Both the position numbers and the translations under genes were made by a program. This document shows, in pieces, positions 39,588 to 51,316 of a DNA stretch of 64,000 nt. Every line of letters begins with the position of its first letter. Within the stretch, counting starts at the first letter, position 1. This stretch comes from Aurantiacibacter spongiae (GTDB lineage Bacteria > Pseudomonadota > Alphaproteobacteria > Sphingomonadales > Sphingomonadaceae). Under the pieces are notes generated by a model, which saw only the letters and a program-made list of their open reading frames with translations, ran no database searches and was not told where the DNA came from. The stretch lies in the NCBI RefSeq assembly GCF_003815535.1, contig NZ_RPFZ01000001.1, positions 1,054,001 through 1,118,000 on the forward strand, read 5' to 3'.

Positions 39588-41519
39588 TCATGACTGACCC
39601 TTAGGCCGCATATGGTCCGGGACAAGACCGGCTGCTACCATCTGGGCACGATCCCATCCGTAGGCAATGCGGCGCACTCCCGACGTTCTCGCGTCATGTC
39701 GGACGCTTTTCGGCGACAGGTTCCAGTGTTCGCCGATCTCCGCGTTCGAGATGATCCGTCGCGCGATCGACCTGACCTGGTCCTTTTCCACCTGCATGCG
39801 TCGACCGCTTTTCTCGAAGGCCAGATCCATTGCCTCGCAAGACGCGGCGAGTTGGGGGGTGTCGATCGTCAGGACTTCGGCCACCTCCTCCTTCGTCAGC
39901 ACTGCGCTGAACGGGAAGTCGTGCTCGCATTCGTCGAACCGAACGCCGAGGAAGGCCTTCAGATCGTCGGGCATGACGAAGCATGTCCTGGTGTCAAACC
40001 GCTCGCCTTCGGACCAGTATTCGATCTGTCCTCGGAGCAGTGCACCGATGATGGAACTCCATGGCTTGAGGTCTCCGCCCAGCAGCCTGACGCAGTCGGA
40101 CAGCCTGCGAGCGTCCCCCGGGATCGCGGTGTCGAGAGCATTTGCGGAAAGACCGGAGACGAGTTCCTCAAAGGATGCTCGGCTCGCCATCGCGCGTGGG
40201 TAGGCCGTCAGCATCGCCTGGTCGCCCCTGAACTCCAGCTGCTTCGACGCCGCCAACTGTTCGACCCCGTACAGCGGGATCCGCAGATCGTATCCGACCG
40301 TGGCCAGATTGACCGATCGGTCCTTGCGCTCACGGAGGTCGTCGATACTGTCGGCGATGAACTGCCTGTTGCCGCGATACCTGCTCGGCTTGCTGACGAG
40401 GACGACCTCGGGGATCTCCGCAAGCCGCTTGGTGCGTCGGTTGTCGATGCCGAGGACCTCCATCGCCTCCGAAGTGTTGTAGGTACGCATCCCGGCCGCG
40501 AACGAGTTCCAGATGTTGTCGGCGAGGTCCGGGATCCCGGCCAGCACCATCTCCGCCCTCTCCGGACCGCTCAGCTTCTCGCTCGCCATCCTCTTCAACC
40601 TCCTCCAGGACTTGAAGAACGCACCGTGGTCCGAACCGTGGGACTCCATGCTCTCGTGCAGCATCTCCCGTACCGTGCGCGGCCATCCGAGCAGCATCCT
40701 TCCGGCATCGCAGACGATGGGGACCTGCCGGTCCGGATCCAGCATCCGGATTGCCTTCATGTCCGCGGTGGCATCCGGCGTGCTCTGCAGGGATGCGGCC
40801 AGCTGGATCGCGGTCAGTGCGATGGTCCCGGGCGCGAGCGACGAGAGCGCGGATGGCAGCGGGGCGAGCGCTCGAATCCGATCTCCTCTTATCGGTGACA
40901 TGAGATCGGCCACGAGGCGATAGCCTTCGAGGTCCGCGCCCTCGAGCAGCGGAACGGGCGCGGGTTCGATCATGTTCAGGCAGTGCTCGCACGTGTCGAT
41001 GCCCCATGCCAGGTACCAGCCCAGTTCGGCTCCGCACGTCTCGCAGCGGTCGACGAGACGCTCGCCGGTGACCGGGCAGCACGCGAGCAGGCGGTTCATC
41101 CAGTGCGCCCTATGGTGCGGTGACAACTCGAGGGACCGTGGAGCGATGCGCCGGATCCGAAGGTCGATGGTGCCCATCGGCAGAACGAGGTCACCGAACG
41201 TCGTGCTCATTCCGCCCTTGACGGCATGTCTCGCTCCCAGCGTCGCGGGTTCCTGCCGGAGGACCTCGGCCAGTCTTGCGATCAGACGGGGATCGGCGAC
41301 TGTGACGGCGCCCGGTGTGTACGTGTCGATGCCTGCCGCATGGAGTATCGGCCACACACGCCCCAGGACGTGCTCCCGCGCCGAACGTGACACTATCCCG
41401 ATCAGGCTCTCGTCCTCCGCGACTTCGATCGGGAAGCGGACCCGCTTCGGTGAGCGCGCGGGTCGGCCCCTCGTGTCCGGGTGCGGAGCCGGCTCGTCGT
41501 GCCTTCGCTGTCCGGTCAC
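39588..41519 (-). CDS. tniQ: TniQ/TnsD-like target-selection protein
   Basis: A 643-residue protein from a GTG start that overlaps the tnsC stop (GTGA). The TniQ signature lies near residues 27-60 (FPIEVAEDESLIGIVSRSA), followed by a zinc-ribbon pattern with Cys147/148, 159, 162, 177 and 180. The long C-terminal part is helical with a final HTH-like segment (NAEIGEHWNLSPKSVRHDA). Length suits a TnsD-type DNA-binding targeting protein rather than a short TniQ. It would recruit TnsC to the attachment site. Last gene of the operon, next to the cydA upstream region. Confidence 0.88.
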   Translation of the reverse strand: MTGQRRHDEPAPHPDTRGRPARSPKRVRFPIEVAEDESLIGIVSRSAREHVLGRVWPILHAAGIDTYTPGAVTVADPRLIARLAEVLRQEPATLGARHAVKGGMSTTFGDLVLPMGTIDLRIRRIAPRSLELSPHHRAHWMNRLLACCPVTGERLVDRCETCGAELGWYLAWGIDTCEHCLNMIEPAPVPLLEGADLEGYRLVADLMSPIRGDRIRALAPLPSALSSLAPGTIALTAIQLAASLQSTPDATADMKAIRMLDPDRQVPIVCDAGRMLLGWPRTVREMLHESMESHGSDHGAFFKSWRRLKRMASEKLSGPERAEMVLAGIPDLADNIWNSFAAGMRTYNTSEAMEVLGIDNRRTKRLAEIPEVVLVSKPSRYRGNRQFIADSIDDLRERKDRSVNLATVGYDLRIPLYGVEQLAASKQLEFRGDQAMLTAYPRAMASRASFEELVSGLSANALDTAIPGDARRLSDCVRLLGGDLKPWSSIIGALLRGQIEYWSEGERFDTRTCFVMPDDLKAFLGVRFDECEHDFPFSAVLTKEEVAEVLTIDTPQLAASCEAMDLAFEKSGRRMQVEKDQVRSIARRIISNAEIGEHWNLSPKSVRHDARTSGVRRIAYGWDRAQMVAAGLVPDHMRPKGQS

Positions 41520-42520
41520 GACGAGAACGGATCCTCGTCGATCCAGCCGTTCGCCATCGCATAGCCTTGCGTGACGCAGCTGAGGTCGAACGGCTCGATC
41601 TTGAGCGCACCGCGTCTGACCGCCAGCGGCACGGCTTCCTGGATGACCCGGGCCGCCCTTCCGACATGACCGCCCGATACGAGCGCGAGGCCGTCGATGA
41701 TCGGTCTCTCGCCGAGGTCGCTGGGGATCCCGAAGACCCCTCGGTTCCTGAGCATCAGGTCGTACTCGCGGCAGAACTTCTGGAACAGCCTGGCCGGCTC
41801 CCTCCTCTCGGGATCCAGAGGGGCGAGTTCCAGCGGCATTCCCAGACGCGCGCACAGGTCGGGATTGCTGCTGAAGAAGTCCACCGACTCGCCGTTGCCG
41901 ATGAGGAGGAGCGGCGCGATGCCGCGATCGAGCATCGTCTGGAAGCGCTCGGTCACCCTGTTGGACTCGCCGAGCGCCCCCTTGAGTCGCTGGACCTCGT
42001 CGGCGACGACCAGTTCGACGCCGAGCTTCGGGACCCATTCCGCTATCCGCTTCTCGAGCACCGGGATCGTGCGCCGATCATCGACCGTCTTGCGACCGTC
42101 GTCATGACTGTCCAGGAAATCATCCCCCATCTGCTTGAGAAGGGCCTGCATGAAGCCCTTGAGCGTCATTCCCTTCTCGATCGTCACTATGATCAGCTGG
42201 TAAGGATTGACGGCGAGACCCTGTGCCTTGCCCTCGGTTTCGAGCTGATGCTTCAAATGCCATGCCAGGGCCGACTTGCCGGCCTGCGACTTCTGACTGA
42301 GCCGGCGTCCGGAGATCGGTCGTCCGAGCTTGCCGCAAGTTTCGGCGATGTATTCGCGCAGTTGAGCGATGATCGCCAGCTGCGGCTCGTGATCGATCCA
42401 GATGCCCTCCATGGCGGTTCTGGCCTTGTCCACGTTCGCGGAGAGCGTCGGATCCGACCAGTCAGGGGTCCGGCGTCCCGTCAGGGGGTCCGGCTGCTTC
42501 TTTTCCGTCTTCCTGGCCAT
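41516..42520 (-). CDS. tnsC: TnsC/TniB-like AAA+ transposition ATPase
   Basis: A 334-residue AAA+ ATPase that would bridge target DNA or TniQ and the transposase. The Walker A region reads SQKSQAGKS at residues ~75-83, keeping GKS but lacking the usual first glycine. Walker B is LVVADE near 170, and sensor-1-like LLLIGNGES follows. The ATG at 42520 has an AGAGAGG ribosome site. The gene starts 59 bases inside the end of tnsB and overlaps tniQ by 4 bases. Confidence 0.88.
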   Translation of the reverse strand: MARKTEKKQPDPLTGRRTPDWSDPTLSANVDKARTAMEGIWIDHEPQLAIIAQLREYIAETCGKLGRPISGRRLSQKSQAGKSALAWHLKHQLETEGKAQGLAVNPYQLIIVTIEKGMTLKGFMQALLKQMGDDFLDSHDDGRKTVDDRRTIPVLEKRIAEWVPKLGVELVVADEVQRLKGALGESNRVTERFQTMLDRGIAPLLLIGNGESVDFFSSNPDLCARLGMPLELAPLDPERREPARLFQKFCREYDLMLRNRGVFGIPSDLGERPIIDGLALVSGGHVGRAARVIQEAVPLAVRRGALKIEPFDLSCVTQGYAMANGWIDEDPFSS

Positions 42521-44783
42521 CTCGTGTATCCTCTCTTTCGTCGAACATGAAACCTTCCCTTCGCGTGTTCCCACCGGGGACACGGATTCCGGGTCGCGTC
42601 CCCGGGCGCGTATGCGTCGCCGTGCTCGCGGTCCCGTAGTCCTCCGCTCGCTTGAGAGGCTTGGATCTGGGTCTGCCCTTGCGATCGGTGGACCTGCTCT
42701 GTGGCGGGGGGGTCGGGACGTCCTCCCTTCCTTCGTCGGGAACCCTCGCCTCGCGATGGTGGGGGGAGACCGGGCCCGCCCCCGCTGTCCCGGCTGCGAG
42801 CTGCGCTTCTCGCATCTCCTCGCTCTCGATCAGCCCCATCGGGACGGCACGGTCCCGGATCGCGAGTTCGTCGAGGAGGGAGTCGAACTTCTTCAGTACC
42901 TCCTGCTTGGACTTCGCGCGTATGCGGGACCGGTCGGTCGCCGGTCCTCGCCCCGCCATCTTGAGCATGTCGCGATAGTGGTGGTGTTCCCAGCGACTCA
43001 GACCGCCGGTGTACTCGGGGTCGGTAGACCACATCGGATGGTACTTGCCGGTGGTCTCGTCCAGCACCTCGATCATGTCGATGTCGCCGTTCCAGACTCG
43101 GATCGGAACCATGCATTTGGCCGTGTCCTGCAGGCGCTGTCGGAAGGGGTGCGCATGGTGGTTGTTGTCGAGCGTCTCGGCCGTGCCGTCGGGGTTCCAC
43201 CGGTAATGGACGTTGTCGTAGACGAGTCCGTCGGTCGTCAGTGCGAACCTGCCACCGGGATGGTCGGCGAGGTGGCGGTGCAGCTCGCGCGGCGACAGCG
43301 CGGGCAGACCGAAGCTGCCGATGTGGGCGAGCATGACCTCCTCCGGCGTCCAGCCGTTGAGGCAAGTCTTCGGCGTCGTGTTCCAGGCGTGCCTGCCCTG
43401 CTCCAGCATCGCCTTGTACTCCGCCCGGGTCACGTTCGCCTCCACCGCCGGGTCGATCCGCGGGTCGCGCTTCTGTCGGGGAGCCATCACGAGCCCCTTC
43501 AGGCCCCGCACCTTGGCCTTGGGGAACTTGAAGAAGTTCTCGAGGATCGACTTGGCGTCGCTGTGGTAGGCGGCCGCCAGTTCGGTGGTCGCGATCGTCG
43601 ACATCCCCGGTACGGAACTCGGCGGGAGGATCGCCTTGTCGTTGTCGTACATCAGCAGTTCGCCGATGCCGTAGATCAGGGCGGACCGGTCCTTCGACCG
43701 TATGTCCTCCTTGTCGACATGGCGCGGACCCAACACGTTCATGAGGGCGATGCGGGCCATCTGGGGCCGCAGGTTTCCGCAGAATATGGAAGGTTCGAAG
43801 ACGTACTGCGAGAAGACGTCCATGGCATAGATGCCCTTCATCTTCCCCGCGATCTCGCCCCACTCGTCCGAGAACGTCGTGTAGTGGCGGAATTCGGTCG
43901 CATCGAAGTAGATGCGTTCGAAGGGTCTCGTGACCTCGATCGGTTCGCCGCTCGGGGCGAACTTCTTCTCCGCGGCCACGACGCCGTAGCGCCTGGCCCA
44001 GTTGGCGCGCGTTTCTGCCCGGTTGATGCGGTTGCGCACGGCCTCGAACGAGGGCGGACTGGCACCGATGTCGCCGTGTCCCGCCTGATCGAGAAGGTCC
44101 CAGAACCGGACCGCCAGCGCCCCGGCCATCTCCTTGTCGCTCAGTTCGTGATCCCGCCAGTAGATTTCGACGACCGCATTCACGAGCCGGTCGACCCGGT
44201 CGGGCAGCTGTGACTCCCCTGGCAGCCGGCCGGACTGATTGACGAAGGCCCCGATCGCTCCGTTGTAGCGGCGGTACTTCTTGGCCGCCCTCATCACGGA
44301 TCGACCACTCGGTCGGACCTGCAGGAGCCTTAGGAGCTTCGTGGTGAGCGAACGGTTCCCGTGCAACCATGAGAGCTTCGGCAGCGGAAGCGGGTGGTTC
44401 GCCGCGACGAAGGCGTCGGCCTTCGGTTCACTCTGCGGCAGGGCCGCCTCGGCGGCCGCCCGGCCCCACTTCCACCTGACGAAACTGGCCGGGTCGCGCG
44501 TGGCGCAGGCGATCATGTCGAGATGGAGGAAACGCTGCAGACGCTGCTGGCACTCGGTCTTGCTGGTGGGTATGCGGATCCGGTCGGATATCAGCTCGTG
44601 GAGGAACCAGGCGGGGTCGGGATATGCCTCCAGTCCCGTCGCCTCGTCCGTGACCAGCAGGGGTCTGCCCACCTCGTCGTCGATATGGAGCAGATCGTCG
44701 AGGATCCGACCGACGTAGACGAACTTCTTCTCCTGCCAGAAGAATGTTCGGCCTGGTGTCACGGGAAGAGGCGTCGTGTCCAT
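42462..44783 (-). CDS. tnsB: TnsB-like DDE transposase
   Basis: A 773-residue Mu/Tn7-type transposase. The rve catalytic core shows Asp294 (IYFDATEF), Asp380 (MYDNDKA) and Glu415 (SILENFF), an exact D-x34-E spacing for the last pair, so it should be active. An N-terminal half with DNA-binding helices precedes, and a Pro/Arg-rich tail follows. In Tn7, TnsB cuts and joins the 3' ends. Its ATG shares a base with the tnsA stop. Confidence 0.93.
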   Translation of the reverse strand: MDTTPLPVTPGRTFFWQEKKFVYVGRILDDLLHIDDEVGRPLLVTDEATGLEAYPDPAWFLHELISDRIRIPTSKTECQQRLQRFLHLDMIACATRDPASFVRWKWGRAAAEAALPQSEPKADAFVAANHPLPLPKLSWLHGNRSLTTKLLRLLQVRPSGRSVMRAAKKYRRYNGAIGAFVNQSGRLPGESQLPDRVDRLVNAVVEIYWRDHELSDKEMAGALAVRFWDLLDQAGHGDIGASPPSFEAVRNRINRAETRANWARRYGVVAAEKKFAPSGEPIEVTRPFERIYFDATEFRHYTTFSDEWGEIAGKMKGIYAMDVFSQYVFEPSIFCGNLRPQMARIALMNVLGPRHVDKEDIRSKDRSALIYGIGELLMYDNDKAILPPSSVPGMSTIATTELAAAYHSDAKSILENFFKFPKAKVRGLKGLVMAPRQKRDPRIDPAVEANVTRAEYKAMLEQGRHAWNTTPKTCLNGWTPEEVMLAHIGSFGLPALSPRELHRHLADHPGGRFALTTDGLVYDNVHYRWNPDGTAETLDNNHHAHPFRQRLQDTAKCMVPIRVWNGDIDMIEVLDETTGKYHPMWSTDPEYTGGLSRWEHHHYRDMLKMAGRGPATDRSRIRAKSKQEVLKKFDSLLDELAIRDRAVPMGLIESEEMREAQLAAGTAGAGPVSPHHREARVPDEGREDVPTPPPQSRSTDRKGRPRSKPLKRAEDYGTASTATHTRPGTRPGIRVPGGNTRREGFMFDEREDTRDGQEDGKEAAGPPDGTPDP

Positions 44784-45733
44784 CAGTCTTCCTGCCGGAC
44801 GAAGCGCTCCAGGAAATCGCGCAATGCCCTGGGCCTGCGGGCCGGGGGAGCCAGACGGACGGGTGTCTCGGCTGTAGGTGGCAGCGACACGTCGATGGCG
44901 ATCAGCCGGGCGGCCATCATCGCATCGAGCTTCGCGCGGGCATCGGAGGGTCGTCCGCCGAGGACGGCCTTCGCGGTGCGCAGGTCGACGACGCCACCGC
45001 CGCTTTCGATCGCGGTCTCGATCGTCCCGTAGTCGTTTTCGATGTCGAACGCTTCGAGCCTGTGGGCGTAGACGTCGGCGATGGTGCCTGCGGTCACTTC
45101 GTCGAAGAGGTCGCCGCGCAAGCGCTCGAATGCCGCGCCTTCTCGCGCGAGCGCGTCTTCGGCGGCGGCGGTCGCGAAGACGACCTCCGGCAGATGGAAG
45201 TAGCTCGCGACCGGTTTTATCTCGGCGAATACGAGGCCCCCCGAGACGAGCTCCACGGCGACGTCGAGGGTGTAGACCGTCACGTTCCCGAACTCGTCGC
45301 AGATCTCCAGCTCGATCGGCTGGAACTGGAAGTCACTGATCAGGGGATTGATCGAGAACCAACGGAGGAAGTTGAGTTCGTGGGGACCTTCGGTGTATTG
45401 CGCGCGACGCGCCTTCTGCGAGTAGTGCGCCGCCGTCGAGAACCAGTTCCTGTATCTGAAGTTCACGCGCACGTGACCGAGGTCCTCGCTCGATCTGTAT
45501 CGGACGGCGGCGGGAGCATGGGTCCTCACGTGGGCCTCGTCGCGCAGAAGATGCGACCGGCCGGGGACCCAGCGCGGTCGGCGCTTGGGACGACGGGGCA
45601 GCAGCTCGCGAGGCGTGGGAAGCCGGTCGCCGACACGGGCGGCATGGCGGTCGTAGGCGGGCGGGCAGAGCGGTGAATTCGAGGAGAGGTAGGCCGACGC
45701 CATCGCTTCCCTTCCGGTGAGCGGGCGGGTCAT
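44783..45733 (-). CDS. tnsA: TnsA-like transposon endonuclease
   Basis: A 316-residue TnsA homologue. The restriction-enzyme-like fold is marked by Glu119 (GPHEL), Asp157 (TLDVAVEL) and the E-x-K pair Glu171/Lys173 (FAEIKP), matching the catalytic set that cuts the 5' ends in Tn7. A C-terminal helical domain would contact TnsC. I chose the ATG at 45733, preceded by GGAG at 8 bases and overlapping the upstream ORF as ATGA. An ATG at 45793 would add 20 residues. TnsA implies cut-and-paste rather than cointegrate transposition. Confidence 0.88.
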   Translation of the reverse strand: MTRPLTGREAMASAYLSSNSPLCPPAYDRHAARVGDRLPTPRELLPRRPKRRPRWVPGRSHLLRDEAHVRTHAPAAVRYRSSEDLGHVRVNFRYRNWFSTAAHYSQKARRAQYTEGPHELNFLRWFSINPLISDFQFQPIELEICDEFGNVTVYTLDVAVELVSGGLVFAEIKPVASYFHLPEVVFATAAAEDALAREGAAFERLRGDLFDEVTAGTIADVYAHRLEAFDIENDYGTIETAIESGGGVVDLRTAKAVLGGRPSDARAKLDAMMAARLIAIDVSLPPTAETPVRLAPPARRPRALRDFLERFVRQED

Positions 45734-46059
45734 CTCGGCGGCTCCGGCCTGTCCCGCGGGTTCACTGGCGGCTTCCGATGGCTTCCGTGACATCGGGACC
45801 AGACGTCGCGGTGCCTGTCGCGTGATTGCAGCCGAAGCCTCCTCTCGACGGTCGCATGACGGCGGGCGACGGGTCTCGTGGCACCGATCCTAACCACACC
45901 GTCGAGGACGCGGTACCGGGGCGGGCATGCGATATTAGTCGCCGCCCGGCAGGTAGGACCTGTCCGGCTGGGTCCGGGCTCGCGAACGGGGTCAGCCAGC
46001 GTCTCGGTCGGGTCCGACCGCTCCGTCGATCCAAGATCGTGGTCGGGATCTTCGTCCAT
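45730..46059 (-). CDS. Possible 109-residue protein upstream of tnsA
   Basis: The frame runs from an ATG at 46059, one base after the stop of the preceding ORF, to a TGA that overlaps the tnsA ATG. The product begins MDEDPDHDLGSTERSD and becomes very rich in Arg and Pro towards its end, with no recognised domain. Tight coupling on both sides argues for translation; the composition argues against. The tnsA frame is also open through part of this stretch but without a start codon. Confidence 0.35.
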   Translation of the reverse strand: MDEDPDHDLGSTERSDPTETLADPVREPGPSRTGPTCRAATNIACPPRYRVLDGVVRIGATRPVARRHATVERRLRLQSRDRHRDVWSRCHGSHRKPPVNPRDRPEPPR

Positions 46060-46366: not shown

Positions 46367-46392
46367 CGCCATTTCTCCAATACACGTATAAA

Positions 46393-46470
46393 GCAGTGGA
46401 CGACTTGCGAGTTGGATGCGAAATCGCGGCATGTCAAGCATATTGCAGTGGACGGCGTGCGAGCCGATGG
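46393..46470. repeat. Two direct repeats in the divergent tns/HTH-rve promoter region
   Basis: Copies at 46393-46418 and 46445-46470 share GCAGTGGACG, then one mismatch each side of a C, then TGCGAG. Start-to-start distance is 52 bases, about five helical turns. They lie between the divergent genes at 46366 (minus) and 46467 (plus), as operators would. They could instead be transposase binding sites. The second copy covers the chosen ATG. Confidence 0.6.
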
Positions 46471-47660
46471 TTAACGTACGGCACATGGACCCCGATGCTG
46501 ATGACGTGGAACGCCTTTTCGGACTGGTGTGGGAGGACGGCGTTCCGGAGAGGGAACGCGTCATCTTCGAGGGCCTCTCGACCGATGACCGTGCCGAGGT
46601 CCTCGCCCGACTCGAGGCGGTCTGGAGGGCGGAGAACGGAGAGGCTTGGAAGCCTCTCGCCCGTACACTCGGTCTCGGGCGCTCGGCGTTCTTCAATCTC
46701 CGGCGCCACTGGCGTGAGCGATCGCTCGAGGGCGTCATCCCTTTCGCGAGGCAGGCACCGCGGCGTATCGAGACCGCGCCCGACGCGCCCATCCGGCGAC
46801 GTGCCAGGCGCCTTCTGATCGAGGACGGCCTCTCCTGCGGAAACGCCGAACTGGCCCGCCGGCTGGTCGAGCAGGCCGGCCCGGACGACGAGATCGGCGG
46901 CGGCTCGGCGCAGACCCGGCTGCAGTGGGCGGAGAGGCTGGTCAGGCATGAACGGCGTGCGTTGGCGAGGGACGGGGCATATCTGCGCGTCAATTACGGC
47001 CGTCGGATATTGGTGGACGTCAGCGCCGTTTCGATCGTCCTGGAGGGCGAGAGGGAACTCGCGGTCGCCGCTTTCTGTGTCGACGTCGCGAGCGGGCTCG
47101 TCCTGGGCACCGCGATCGGTCGGCTCAGGACGACGCTCGAACTCCAGCGGAGTGCCGTCGACGACGCCTGGCGTTACGTTCGTGACCATGCGGCCGATCG
47201 CGCTTCCGGCGTGTGGCCACCGTGCGGACTGCACCTCATGCTCCCCCCTGCGACCGATGGTCCAGTCCGCGACGACGAGCTGCGCGCGGTCACCAGCGAA
47301 TTGGTGGTGCGTGGCCCCGGCAGGTATGCGTTCGGCCGGGAACTGGTGCAGTTGCTCGGACCCAGGATCGGTCGGATCCCCTTGGCCCCCCGTCGGACCC
47401 TGGCGGTCGATAGCGTACCGTTCTCCGACAATCGCAGGATCGTCGAGCTGCCGGGGCCGGAGGCGGACGCCCTTTGGCGCCGTGAGGTCCTGCGACACAA
47501 CGATCCGGTCTTCCGCGCGATGCAGACGGGAAGCGTGTTCGCGGCGGACGCTCGATGGAAGGACAGGCCAGGGGTCTTCGCTGCGAGTTCGCCGATAGGG
47601 CGGATGTCCGACGTCTTCCATGCGGTCGACGGCTTCCTCCGCGAGATTCAGGACGCCTGA
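46467..47660 (+). CDS. HTH protein with DDE-integrase-like (rve) fold, type 1
   Basis: A 397-residue protein. Residues ~60-85 form an HTH (WKPLARTLGLGRSAFFNLRRHW). A second helical DNA-binding region follows near 110-160. An rve-like core then begins at ILVDVSAVSIVLE (Asp184) and continues with LAVAAFCVDVASGLVLGTAIG, ATDGPVRDDELRAV (Asp264) and FGRELVQLL (Glu292). The last spacing is 28 rather than about 35, so catalysis is uncertain. It resembles a shortened TnsB without the C-terminal part. Start uncertain: ATGs at 46416, 46467 and 46485. Convergent with a related protein, overlapping by 13 bases. Confidence 0.6.
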   Translation: MVNVRHMDPDADDVERLFGLVWEDGVPERERVIFEGLSTDDRAEVLARLEAVWRAENGEAWKPLARTLGLGRSAFFNLRRHWRERSLEGVIPFARQAPRRIETAPDAPIRRRARRLLIEDGLSCGNAELARRLVEQAGPDDEIGGGSAQTRLQWAERLVRHERRALARDGAYLRVNYGRRILVDVSAVSIVLEGERELAVAAFCVDVASGLVLGTAIGRLRTTLELQRSAVDDAWRYVRDHAADRASGVWPPCGLHLMLPPATDGPVRDDELRAVTSELVVRGPGRYAFGRELVQLLGPRIGRIPLAPRRTLAVDSVPFSDNRRIVELPGPEADALWRREVLRHNDPVFRAMQTGSVFAADARWKDRPGVFAASSPIGRMSDVFHAVDGFLREIQDA

Positions 47661-48451
47661 TCCCCGGACAACGAGCCGAGGCGATCGAGCAGTTCCCGAA
47701 AGCAAGGCCCGGTCAGATCGCAGGAAAGCCCTGTATCATCGTCGACTTTCAATCTCGCCTTGACCAGATCGCGCGTCCGCTCCGCGTCCAGCGGGACGTG
47801 GGAACTGCGCGGGAGGATGGATCGCCTGTCGGGGCTCGCCTCCACCAGGCGTGGGCGAAAGCGCATGCCTTCCTGCCTCTGGCCGAGAAGAGCCTCGATG
47901 CACCGGCCGTGCCCGTAGGGGCCGACCTCCAGGACGTTGAGCGAGAGACCGGCTCGATCGATCGCGTCGCACAGCAATGGCCAGTCCTTATCCGATACGC
48001 GGGGGACGGCTATGCGCTCGATCACATGCTCGCCTTCGGGCTTCCGGGCGGGTCCGAGTGCGGCCCGCAGACTGGATGCGATAATCTTGGTCGATGGCGG
48101 CCCCCTGCTGATCTCGAGAGCCACGATCCGGTGGATCGTCGCGTCGATGACCACGGTGGCCAGTGGGCGCTCGATCATCCCGGTGCCGAAGTCCACCGGC
48201 AGTTCGAGTACCGTATGATCGACGATCAGGTTTGCCAGGGATGCGAGTTCGTCCGTCAGGCGGGGTTCTCGACGGGCGAGGACGAACCGGCGGACCTTCT
48301 CCCTCGTCGGCATGGGGACGTTCTGGGCTTCGCCTTCCCTGATCGCCGTCCGGACGATCTCGTCCGGACCGTCCGTGGGAGCACTTTCGATGGCCTGTTC
48401 GATGACACGCTGCTGCTCTTCATCCAGGCCGACCGGCTTGTTGCGTGACAT
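47648..48451 (-). CDS. DDE-integrase-like (rve) fold protein, type 2, N-terminus unclear
   Basis: A 267-residue product from the first ATG. Residues 70-120 match the opening of the Mu/TnsB-type rve core closely: LIVDHTVLELPV (Asp78), then ERPLATVVIDATIHRIVALE and SRGPPS. The segment where the second Asp should lie reads LNVLEVGPYGHGRCIEALLG, so that Asp seems missing, which suggests a non-catalytic relative. The frame stays open upstream and encodes an HTH resembling that of the facing gene, so the real protein may be longer or the 5' end broken. Confidence 0.6.
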   Translation of the reverse strand: MSRNKPVGLDEEQQRVIEQAIESAPTDGPDEIVRTAIREGEAQNVPMPTREKVRRFVLARREPRLTDELASLANLIVDHTVLELPVDFGTGMIERPLATVVIDATIHRIVALEISRGPPSTKIIASSLRAALGPARKPEGEHVIERIAVPRVSDKDWPLLCDAIDRAGLSLNVLEVGPYGHGRCIEALLGQRQEGMRFRPRLVEASPDRRSILPRSSHVPLDAERTRDLVKARLKVDDDTGLSCDLTGPCFRELLDRLGSLSGDQAS

Positions 48452-48817
48452 TTCCGGTCCTGCCAGCTTCCGCGGATCGCGGAGCGTTCTCCAAGCCTTG
48501 ACGAGGTTGTAGAACTGCGCGGTTCCGAGGCCGATCTCCTTGGCCAGCCGCTCGGCGTTCAGTCGCCCCGGTGATGCTTCGAACCGCCCGATCGCTTCGA
48601 TACGTCGACGGACGATGTTGCGGAGTCTGGGTTCAAGAGCGCTGAGGTCAGGAGAAACCCGAGTTTTGTTGGGGTCGTGGCGCCAATGAAGGCGATTTCT
48701 CCGGCGTGGCCACGGTCGTGGACCGTCCTTCCCTGTTGTGGCGGTGGCGGTTCCGTGCGCCCTTGAAAGATTAACGCTGCGCTCGATGGGGACGGCGGAT
48801 TGGAACGCCGGCGTGGT
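48452..48817 (-). other. In-frame HTH-coding extension without a standard start codon
   Basis: Upstream of 48451 the frame is open to a TAG at 48818-48820. Its nearest ~65 codons encode RLRNIVRRRIEAIGRFEAS and LNAERLAKEIGLGTAQFYNLVKAW, an HTH clearly like that of the facing protein. I find no ATG, GTG or TTG in the frame. Either the start is rare, a frameshift joins it to another frame, or the gene lost its 5' end. Confidence 0.6.
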
Positions 48818-49259: not shown

Positions 49260-50339
49260 TTGGACGATCCGGCTATCGAGAGGTGGAGCGAGCGGGCATG
49301 GAAGTTGCTCGCTCGCACCCTGAACGAGTTCATGACCCAATCGTCTTCTGGTACTCCGCCGCAGAAGGCAGCGCTATCCGATCCGGATCTGGCAAGGATG
49401 TTGACGGGCGTTCTCTCCGCTCGCGATTCCTACCGGGACGGGATTCTCATTCAGCTCGCCTATGCGTTGAGTGCGGAGAAGGACGTCGAAAAGAAGGCGG
49501 ACTTTCGGGAACGGCAGGAGGGGGGCGGGAACGTTTCGAAGAGCTTGGGCGCTCTATGCAGCGATCTGCACATCCCGGGTGTGAAGGACGCGTTTCAGAA
49601 CATCGGGAAGAACAGCACGAACCTCGTCCGCGGAAATGTGGAGGCCTACGACGACCTTCTCGCTTGGATAAATACCGCTACGCCGTCACGGCGCAGGGAA
49701 GCCTTCGAATTCCTGGCTGCGACCACGGCGTCCATGGCTCGTCCGGTGCTCGCGTTTCCCGAACTCCACGTGGCGAACCTGACGTTCGCAAGGATGGTCC
49801 GCCTGATCAACGGAATGCTGGAGACCCAGTCGGGAGGAGCGTTCGAACAGTTCCTTCTTGCCGCGTTCGTCCATGGCCTGTTGGACGAGTATTCCCTGAC
49901 CGGTCGAGGCGGCGTGCATGTGGAAACGAAGAACATCAACGCCAGCGATGCGAGTTCGAGGTCTGCCTCGGATGTCCAGATCAAACGGGGCAACCGATTC
50001 GAGGAAGCGTTCGAGGTGACGGCCAACGACTGGTCGGGCAAGCCGGCTGATGCGGTGGCTTCCATGAAGGCTCACGATCTCGCGAGGATCCATATTGCTG
50101 GCAAGGTGGGTGGCGGCTCACTCGGTGACGTCTCCGCTCTGCTCGCTCTGCCATCGGATGTGGATGTGTCCGTATTGGACCTGCGAGCGTTGTTGCATGG
50201 TCTTGCCGCCTTCATGCGCAAGCCCGCGCGAGCGAGCGCGCTGCGAAGACTCTATGAACTCCTCGATCGCCATCAGCCTGAAATCGAGAGAACTAACGCC
50301 TATGTGCGGCTACTGTCGACGGCGGGTGTCACGGCCTAG
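49260..50339 (+). CDS. Probable type II restriction endonuclease
   Basis: A 359-residue protein from a TTG start behind a strong AGGAGG. A PD-(D/E)xK-like core is suggested by Glu196 (GGAFEQFLL), Asp238 (ASDVQI) and Glu252 (EAFEVTAN), although the usual Lys is replaced by Thr. The helical N-terminal ~170 residues may recognise DNA. The adjacent convergent C5 methyltransferase makes a restriction-modification pair likely. It might belong to the SacI-type family, which I could not verify. Stops of the two genes overlap at a CTAG. Confidence 0.6.
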   Translation: MDDPAIERWSERAWKLLARTLNEFMTQSSSGTPPQKAALSDPDLARMLTGVLSARDSYRDGILIQLAYALSAEKDVEKKADFRERQEGGGNVSKSLGALCSDLHIPGVKDAFQNIGKNSTNLVRGNVEAYDDLLAWINTATPSRRREAFEFLAATTASMARPVLAFPELHVANLTFARMVRLINGMLETQSGGAFEQFLLAAFVHGLLDEYSLTGRGGVHVETKNINASDASSRSASDVQIKRGNRFEEAFEVTANDWSGKPADAVASMKAHDLARIHIAGKVGGGSLGDVSALLALPSDVDVSVLDLRALLHGLAAFMRKPARASALRRLYELLDRHQPEIERTNAYVRLLSTAGVTA

Positions 50340-51316
50340 ACGACGCACATTCCCTGGAGCAGGGCGCGGGCTGCTACCTCGGCCAGGACCGGCAGAACGG
50401 CATTCCCGACCTGACGGTATTGCGATGATCGCCTTCCGTGGAACACCATATCGTCGGGAAACGTCTGAAGCCTTGCGCATTCGCGCACGGAGATTCTGCG
50501 AGCGTTCGGGAGTGTGCCGCTGCGCGGCCTTCCACCGGCGAGAAGATGAGCATGGTACGCCGGGACGAGATCGGCCACGTCGATGAAGGGCGTCTTGTTG
50601 CCGCCGGCGCTTGCCAGGATCGTGGGCGAAGGTCTGGCCAGATCGATCCCACGGCCGCCGCCGTTGAACAGCTGACCATCGAAGGGGTTGGGGCGTATGT
50701 CGGGATTCTTCGCGTAGGTGACTTTCGAAGGATTGTGTTCGCCGACGACCTTCTTTCCGATCGCGGCTGACGCCGGCACGATCGCTTGGCTCGGGGGCAC
50801 CTTGAAAGATCCGCCCACGTCCCTGCGATATCCGGTCAATAGCATGCGACGACGCTTCTGCGGGACACCGTGGTCGGCCGCATTGACCATAGCCGGCTCG
50901 CCGATGTCGTAATGGTCGCGCAATGGCCGCACCGTTTCCATGAGATATTCTAGATGGGTTCCGGCAAGACCGGGTACGTTCTCCATCAGGAACGCCTTGG
51001 GCCGGGATTCGAGCACCGCCCGGACGAATTCGGGGAGCATGTCGCGGGAATCCCGTTCACCCATCCTCTTGCCCCCTGTCGACCAGGGCTGACAGGGCGG
51101 CCCGCCAACCACGAGGTCGATGTTGGCGTAAGATCGGAAATCCACGTTGCGGATGTCGTCGTCGACCAGTGTCACGTCCGGAAAGGATGCCCCGAACGTC
51201 CGGCACGCATCGCGATCGTATTCGACCGCAGCGACGGTGCGGACACCGGCGCGCTTCATTCCGAGCGTAAGGCCACCCGCTCCGCAGAACAGATCTATGG
51301 CCGTGATATCGCTCAC
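50336..51316 (-). CDS. DNA (cytosine-5) methyltransferase
   Basis: A 326-residue C5 methyltransferase with all main motifs in order: DLFCGAGGL (I), GGPPCQPWS with the catalytic Cys (IV), ENVPGL (VI), QKRRR (VIII), ECARLQTFPDD (IX) and QVGNAVLP (X). The target-recognition region between VIII and IX is ~110 residues. GTG start at 51316 with GGAG 8 bases upstream; the frame further upstream is not coding-like. It would protect sites cut by the neighbouring endonuclease. Confidence 0.93.
   Translation of the reverse strand: MSDITAIDLFCGAGGLTLGMKRAGVRTVAAVEYDRDACRTFGASFPDVTLVDDDIRNVDFRSYANIDLVVGGPPCQPWSTGGKRMGERDSRDMLPEFVRAVLESRPKAFLMENVPGLAGTHLEYLMETVRPLRDHYDIGEPAMVNAADHGVPQKRRRMLLTGYRRDVGGSFKVPPSQAIVPASAAIGKKVVGEHNPSKVTYAKNPDIRPNPFDGQLFNGGGRGIDLARPSPTILASAGGNKTPFIDVADLVPAYHAHLLAGGRPRSGTLPNARRISVRECARLQTFPDDMVFHGRRSSQYRQVGNAVLPVLAEVAARALLQGMCVV

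Follow-up and report, generated by a model that had tools for sequence, protein, structure and literature searches.

A convergent pair of transposase relatives, predicted to be non-catalytic, as an exchangeable accessory module of a Tn7-like element family

Two facing genes for helix-turn-helix (HTH) proteins, placed directly beside a complete set of Tn7-like transposition genes, raise the question of what such proteins do in an element which already has an intact transposase. The locus was studied in a window of 64,000 nucleotides, which is the whole stretch of DNA analysed, and the two genes are called P1 and P2 here. The features of the locus are as follows.

39588..41561, minus strand: TniQ/TnsD-like protein, about 650 aa, Cys/His positions conserved, provisional start
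41516..42583, minus strand: TnsC/TniB-like AAA+ ATPase (TniB E=9.9e-6)
42462..44783, minus strand: TnsB-like DDE transposase, intact, DD35E (D294, D380, E415, from alignment)
44783..45793, minus strand: TnsA-like endonuclease (29/29 proteins have D86, E100 and K102, numbered on the trimmed protein)
46383..46463, plus strand: 29-nt direct repeat in the tnsA-P1 spacer, two copies, 79% alike, spacing 52 (p=0.016, 60 shuffles), candidate operator
46467..47660, plus strand: P1, with HTH, second helical region and RNase H-like core (ORF, profile matches)
47648..48817, minus strand, stop to stop: P2, a homologue of P1 with the parts in the same order (ORF, profile matches)
49260..50339, plus strand: cargo, SacI-type restriction endonuclease (PF09566, 20.7 bits, cut-off 19.3)
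50336..51310, minus strand: cargo, C-5 cytosine DNA methyltransferase, provisional start (PF00145 E=2.6e-60)

The two convergent open reading frames described in the initial annotation were borne out and share 13 nt (47648-47660), and the HTH strings named in it are present in both proteins, that of P2 lying at 48491-48544 on the minus strand. The start of P1 is provisional, since in-frame ATG codons are also found at 46416, 46431 and 46485. In the window copy of P2, no ATG, GTG or TTG was found in frame 5' of the HTH, the first such codon being at 48451, past the HTH; a programmed frameshift, a rare start or damage may be responsible. A GTG at 48713 (region 48640-48720, minus strand) opens a different frame with a TGA just before DLSALEP, the register being off by one base. 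In the closest relative, L012, the P2 frame (L012:11453-12433, minus strand) carries an in-frame TAG near its C-terminal end. The restriction-modification cargo (49260-51310) adjoins the pair on the right.

The tniQ-tnsC-tnsB-tnsA operon lies on the minus strand to the left of the pair with all frames open, and tnsA adjoins P1. Matches to TnsA, TnsB, TnsC and TniQ were found together in 28 of the 29 loci carrying both P1 and P2, the window included; L080, at a contig edge, is without TnsC and TniQ. TniQ is partial in L013, TnsA is in two frames in L082 and TnsB is in two frames in L016, L017 and L078. The catalytic D, D and E of TnsB are kept in all 31 single-frame proteins with DD35E spacing, and the invariant D, E and K columns of TnsA are those which we take to be its catalytic residues. 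The complete TnsABC-TniQ set claimed for the neighbourhood of the pair is thus present, and judged by these residues it looks active. In L016 and L078 (L016:5964-8392, minus strand; L078:10504-12980, plus strand) the TGA that ends the front part of TnsB overlaps a codon at which the rear part might begin (ATGA, GTGA), hence TnsB seems to be naturally split there.

The order of parts common to P1 and P2 reflects true homology, as the profile-profile comparison (hhalign) of the two gave E=2.3e-25 over 301 columns. By the same method, P1 matched TnsB of the same elements at E=1.9e-7 and P2 at E=1e-6. Against PDB sequences, the P1 profile, which was built from 29 proteins and held no TnsB, gave three matches at E<=1, all of them TnsB chains (2.6e-7), spanning the HTH to the middle of the core. 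The P2 profile of 27 proteins found TnsB chains at the top (2.4e-7), followed by an integrase and TnsAB chains (3e-6 to 1e-5), another TnsB (8e-4) and lastly three unrelated matches (0.08 to 0.81). Moreover, all nine TniA-like frames compared (543-602 aa) were matched by strict profiles from the pair loci, with 33-72 bits for P1 and 44-72 bits for P2, and these frames have the D, D and E. Earlier, widened profiles had held a stray row in P1 (L096) and two rows in P2 (L097 and L095, a transposase fragment); they were also used for trimming the proteins for the trees and for placing the upstream regions in the repeat scan. The transposase matches persisted with lower scores when the profiles were rebuilt from pair loci alone. 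Profile A10 excludes the P2 proteins of L012, L019, L082 and L092. Still earlier iterative profiles had drawn in TnsB as well and do not count towards the homology. Single P1 and P2 proteins gave weak HTH matches in Pfam and scattered weak others.

These matches back the proposed relationship to DDE transposases, and the rve-like (RNase H-like) core which had been suggested for both proteins is predicted on the same grounds. Aligned to TnsB, P1 reaches as far as profile column 472 and P2 as far as column 481, near the point at which TnsB of L016 and L078 is split (about 470, in slightly different numbering). The C-terminal half of TnsB forms a barrel and binds TnsC, and P1 and P2 lack it. As far as profile comparison can tell, they would be two diverged copies of the front part of a TniA/TnsB-type protein, with HTH, helical linker and RNase H-like core. 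The order of HTH, linker helices and predicted core is like that of the TniA/TnsB-type DDE transposases (TniA of Tn5053, TnsB of Tn7 and CAST), with profile matches that cover most of both proteins, whereas P1 and P2 lack the catalytic Glu and the C-terminal half and occur as a pair beside an intact TnsB.

The catalytic residues were compared column by column. Besides TnsB, 13 of 13 other transposase-like frames in the alignment have D, D and E. The initial annotation had read three acidic residues of P1 as a triad at altered spacing, and one of the three stood the comparison: D184 is Asp in 29/29 P1 proteins and, of 11 transposases, 8 place their first catalytic Asp on its column (that of the remaining three falls on a P1 column with D in 8/29). 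Asp264 and Glu292 did not, as D is found at the former position in 8/29 and E at the latter in 2/29. The P1 column aligned with the second Asp holds D in 1/29 for all 10 transposases aligning there, and that aligned with the catalytic Glu holds E in 0/29 (V294 in the window), so the idea of a displaced triad was given up. In case of P2, the first Asp is D in 12/29, the second is D in 1/29 in seven of eight alignments (5/29 in the remaining one) and the Glu is E in a single protein of 29, the window's own copy. The Asp-Asp-Glu triad which marks a DDE transposase was hence absent from P1 and from P2 (29 proteins each), and by sequence comparison the catalytic residues are lost. Another placing of the second Asp, with D in 18/29, came from one of seven alignments and disappeared with the profiles made from pair loci alone.

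With up to four candidates scored per genome, 27 of the 396 genomes of the order gave a match to the P1 model; in G413 and G028 the match is the TnsB-type transposase itself. In the class sample it matched 3 of 385 genomes, namely the window's own, one of its family and, weakly, G744, which belongs to another family of the class and has a 190-aa frame (L096:9251-9820, plus strand; 28-30 bits) with no tns genes within the 19 kb read. Of 398 genomes in the phylum sample, 13 gave matches, four within the family; the other nine come from outside it, with frame lengths of 462-800 aa, and the six that were aligned are all DDE transposases. Homologues scattered with no link to Tn7-like elements or to the partner gene were looked for and not found, barring the weak frame of G744, and the scans of viral contigs gave no relative. 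The matches in named records are from Novosphingobium, Sphingomonas and Sphingobium. The Tn7-like family to which the pair belongs as an accessory module was met here in genomes of the Sphingomonadaceae type.

Elements were also counted by their transposase, with at least 300 bits to the TnsB model and up to two candidates scored per genome in the 396 genomes, which gave 29 elements. In two of them (G144 and G271 contig 8) the place of the pair is off the contig, leaving 27 assessable elements, and 24 of these have both P1 and P2, a share biased towards the pair, since the nine loci behind the TnsB model all carry it. A single rearranged relative is present on contig 7 of G289, and G172 and G345 have neither gene. 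Hence, the pair usually travels with tnsABC-tniQ, but not always, since L129 and L130 are complete elements of the family with the same core and no pair. In five more distant complete TnsABC-TniQ elements with weaker TnsB matches (L132-L136) the pair was found in 0/5, and in four TniA-type loci (L137-L140) in 0/4. Both genes are also present below the TnsB threshold in G222 and G191, and further loci with both came from the P1/P2 query (L010, L011) and the TnsB query (L032). P1 is the gene nearer to tnsA in all 29 loci with both genes and is directed away from it; P1 and P2 are convergent in 26, and codirectional in L015, L088 and L090. Copies of P2 seem to pile up in L088, with one P1 and three P2, and in L090, with one P1 and two P2, all on one strand (L088:4226-9738, L090:9840-17652).

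The history of the pair differs from that of the core. Protein distances were correlated over 22 of the 29 loci; L013, L019 and L082 (long branch or partial proteins) were left out by choice, and L016, L017, L078 and L080 because TnsB is in two frames or TniQ missing. Distances of TnsA, TnsB, TnsC and TniQ correlate with one another at r=0.90-0.96, and those of P1 and P2 at r=0.81, whereas the values between P1 and the core are 0.09-0.14 and between P2 and the core 0.21-0.26, the latter link being weak but real (p 0.001-0.006). As the distances of P1 and P2 agree with each other and fit the core poorly, the pair is exchanged as a module. In well-supported trees, the window locus with L012, L083 with L086, L032 with L085, L087 with L080 and L084, and L077 with L078 cluster in both P1 and P2 while their core clades differ (the core of L078 was placed by the TniQ and TnsC trees, its TnsB being split). 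Exchange is not constant, since L015/L088/L090 and L091/L092/L093 stay together in both pair and core.

The exchange is also seen at the DNA level. L077 and L078 have a common block of 3.2 kb, which runs from about 45 bp 5' of the P1 frame past P2 over two small frames. In L088 and L090, 7.8 kb of core DNA is 91% identical and two P2 genes are 93-95% identical, against 32% for P1. P1 and P2 are thus swapped as a block between element backbones. Both are under purifying selection in the pairs tested, with dN/dS of 0.08 for P1 (one comparison) and 0.12-0.28 for P2 (three comparisons), the synonymous distances of L077/L078 being saturated. For the P2 genes common to L088 and L090, the values are 0.18 and 0.28, and the adjoining P1 has been replaced. 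Faster evolution of P1 and P2 than of TnsB was considered and dropped, as the proteins have similar median identities (0.20-0.23; TnsC 0.28), which are close to saturation.

The spacer between tnsA and P1 holds the direct repeat listed above. Its 19-nt core occurs at this site alone at up to three mismatches in the window; the pattern was derived from the repeats themselves, and its shuffles are no independent control. At p<=0.05 (60 shuffles, uncorrected), seven of the 29 loci have direct repeats 5' of P1 (16-29 nt in six and 9 nt in one; that of L077 and L078 is common by descent), five others have inverted repeats there and 17/29 have no repeat at this level. The corresponding counts 5' of P2 are 2/28 for direct and 3/28 for inverted repeats. 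In the seven loci searched with their own motif, including L016 (p=0.066), the exact motif occurs in two copies and upstream of P1 alone, and the remaining matches have four mismatches. The repeats look like the operator of divergent tnsA and P1 promoters, and P1 and P2 would be candidates for the binding protein. They could also belong to TnsB or a host factor, since the window locus and L012, which are sisters in P1, have no repeat sequence in common.

Taken with the distribution, these data lead to a tentative reading of function. As the pair is usually present yet swapped as a unit, it probably controls or directs transposition, and regulator, target-site and end-binding roles, all raised by the initial annotation, are possible. 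We favour, with a probability of roughly 45%, non-catalytic DNA-binding proteins which serve as element-specific regulators of transposition. P1 and P2 would act jointly, would bind DNA around the divergent promoters of tnsA and P1, with the paired repeats as the site in some elements, and would gate either the amount of TnsABC-TniQ or the assembly of TnsB, the place of gating probably being the tnsA-P1 spacer. The repressor of phage Mu and MuA have a common operator-binding domain, and this kinship between a regulator and a transposase in the parts that bind DNA may serve as an analogy for the pair. The elements which manage without a pair (L129 and L130, and the distant L132-L136), the 17 loci with no significant repeat upstream of P1, and the Asp of P1 kept without exception, which has no clear role in a pure regulator, count against the regulator reading. 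A role in defence, also raised at first, was not sustained, as PADLOC gave one weak match (E=0.002) among the 29 P1 proteins scanned.

The pair could instead be an accessory target selector, which would bind the target or a host factor bound to it and bring TniQ-TnsC, in the manner of TnsE or TnsF, so that a swap would change targeting. We regard this as somewhat unlikely. It would suit the HTH in both proteins and the swapping between backbones, and modular target selectors are described in other Tn7-like elements in the part of the survey consulted, including TnsF, an inactivated tyrosine recombinase (PMC10293859). Against such a role, the same part of that survey takes a TniQ of more than 400 aa in dual loci as a sign of direct target selection, size alone being an uncertain guide, and the TniQ here has about 650 aa (PMC10293859). 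L012 and L016, moreover, belong to one TniQ clade and lie beside the same tRNA-Thr with different pairs; this comparison is weak, as L084, with another TniQ, is also at tRNA-Thr and no tRNA was found in the locus of L078, the TniQ of which is near that of L016. The tRNA-Thr(CGT) genes lie on the TniQ side at L012:3056-3131, L016:2678-2753 and L084:17026-17101, and a tRNA-Gly and a tRNA-Pro are found on this side in L089 and L081, respectively.

Both known accessory factors differ from the pair in their make-up. TnsF of Tn6022-like elements likewise derives from a dead recombination enzyme and is accessory to a Tn7-like element (PMC10293859), but it has another fold and shares its operon with a short TniQ. 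The present elements have two genes instead of one, with P1 divergent from tnsA and a long TniQ. TnsE of Tn7 is, like the pair, an accessory gene additional to TniQ/TnsD, but is given SSB/PriB-like domains in the same text (PMC10293859); the TnsE family was not among the Pfam matches of P1 or P2.

It is unlikely that P1 and P2 are non-catalytic subunits of the transpososome which sit beside TnsB on outer end sites. MuA and TnsB complexes do contain subunits that do not catalyse, and the similarity of P1 and P2 to the front module of TnsB, ending near the natural split, would fit such a part. On the other hand, L129 and L130 keep the same core without the pair, and an exact search of seven loci, the TniQ side included, gave no further copy of the motifs that lie upstream of P1. 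We consider it equally doubtful that the pair is an exchangeable module which reads an element-specific DNA address and sets whether, where or against whom TnsABC-TniQ acts, additional P2 genes conferring immunity to rivals. Still less probable is P2 as a repressor directed at P1 or TnsB of other elements, for immunity or kin discrimination, its range being widened by additional copies. The supernumerary P2 genes of L088 and L090, the purifying selection on those common to both though P1 changed, and a P2 fragment in L087 favour such a role; intact extra copies are found in these two loci alone, the cores of which are closely related. That the pair is a functionless passenger or a decaying transposase remnant, as the missing start of the window P2 and the TAG of the L012 P2 might suggest, is scarcely credible, given that 24 of the 27 assessable elements have it and that dN/dS is 0.08-0.28.

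Tn7-like elements are models for controlled, programmable DNA insertion, and this lineage carries a pair of transposase relatives, non-catalytic by their residues, as a usual yet block-replaced part. If the pair sets regulation or targeting, its exchange is a natural experiment on what it specifies; if true, it would be, after TnsF, another dead recombination enzyme reused as an accessory factor. No pair like P1 and P2 was seen in the consulted parts of the survey of target selectors, which covers TnsD, TnsE, Cas effectors and TnsF (PMC10293859), or likewise in those of the cargo survey (PMC8649781). Nor was one found described in the literature searched by title and start of abstract, which lies mostly outside subscription journals. 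The pair thus appears to be unreported, which is not a proven first. Neither TnsB nor TniQ of the window gives a significant match to its own Pfam family, and such matches were obtained for only 3/9 TnsB relatives and 3/10 TniQ relatives (PF06527, the window's own copy not among them). The Tn7-like family bearing P1 and P2 is therefore poorly recognised, and its elements may be easy to miss.

The window was searched for element ends through inverted k-mers, TGT/ACA pairs and duplications of 5 bp, none of which pointed to a convincing pair; one candidate had matching 5-bp flanks but was rejected because only 8/20 end bases are alike. As regards an empty site, loci of 11 same-genus relatives were searched for cydA over about 1.5 kb from the hemN side, and it was not found. 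For an end candidate in L088 and L090, a search of 58-59 kb in either genome gave no matching partner. This candidate is TAATCCCGCAC(A/G)CTAA, at which the core homology stops (L090:1782, L088:18156), and it is likely to be an element end. L015 and L088 also encode a protein of about 225 aa which is weakly similar to TnsB (L015:7057-7722, L088:3210-3896), the two being 42% identical to each other.
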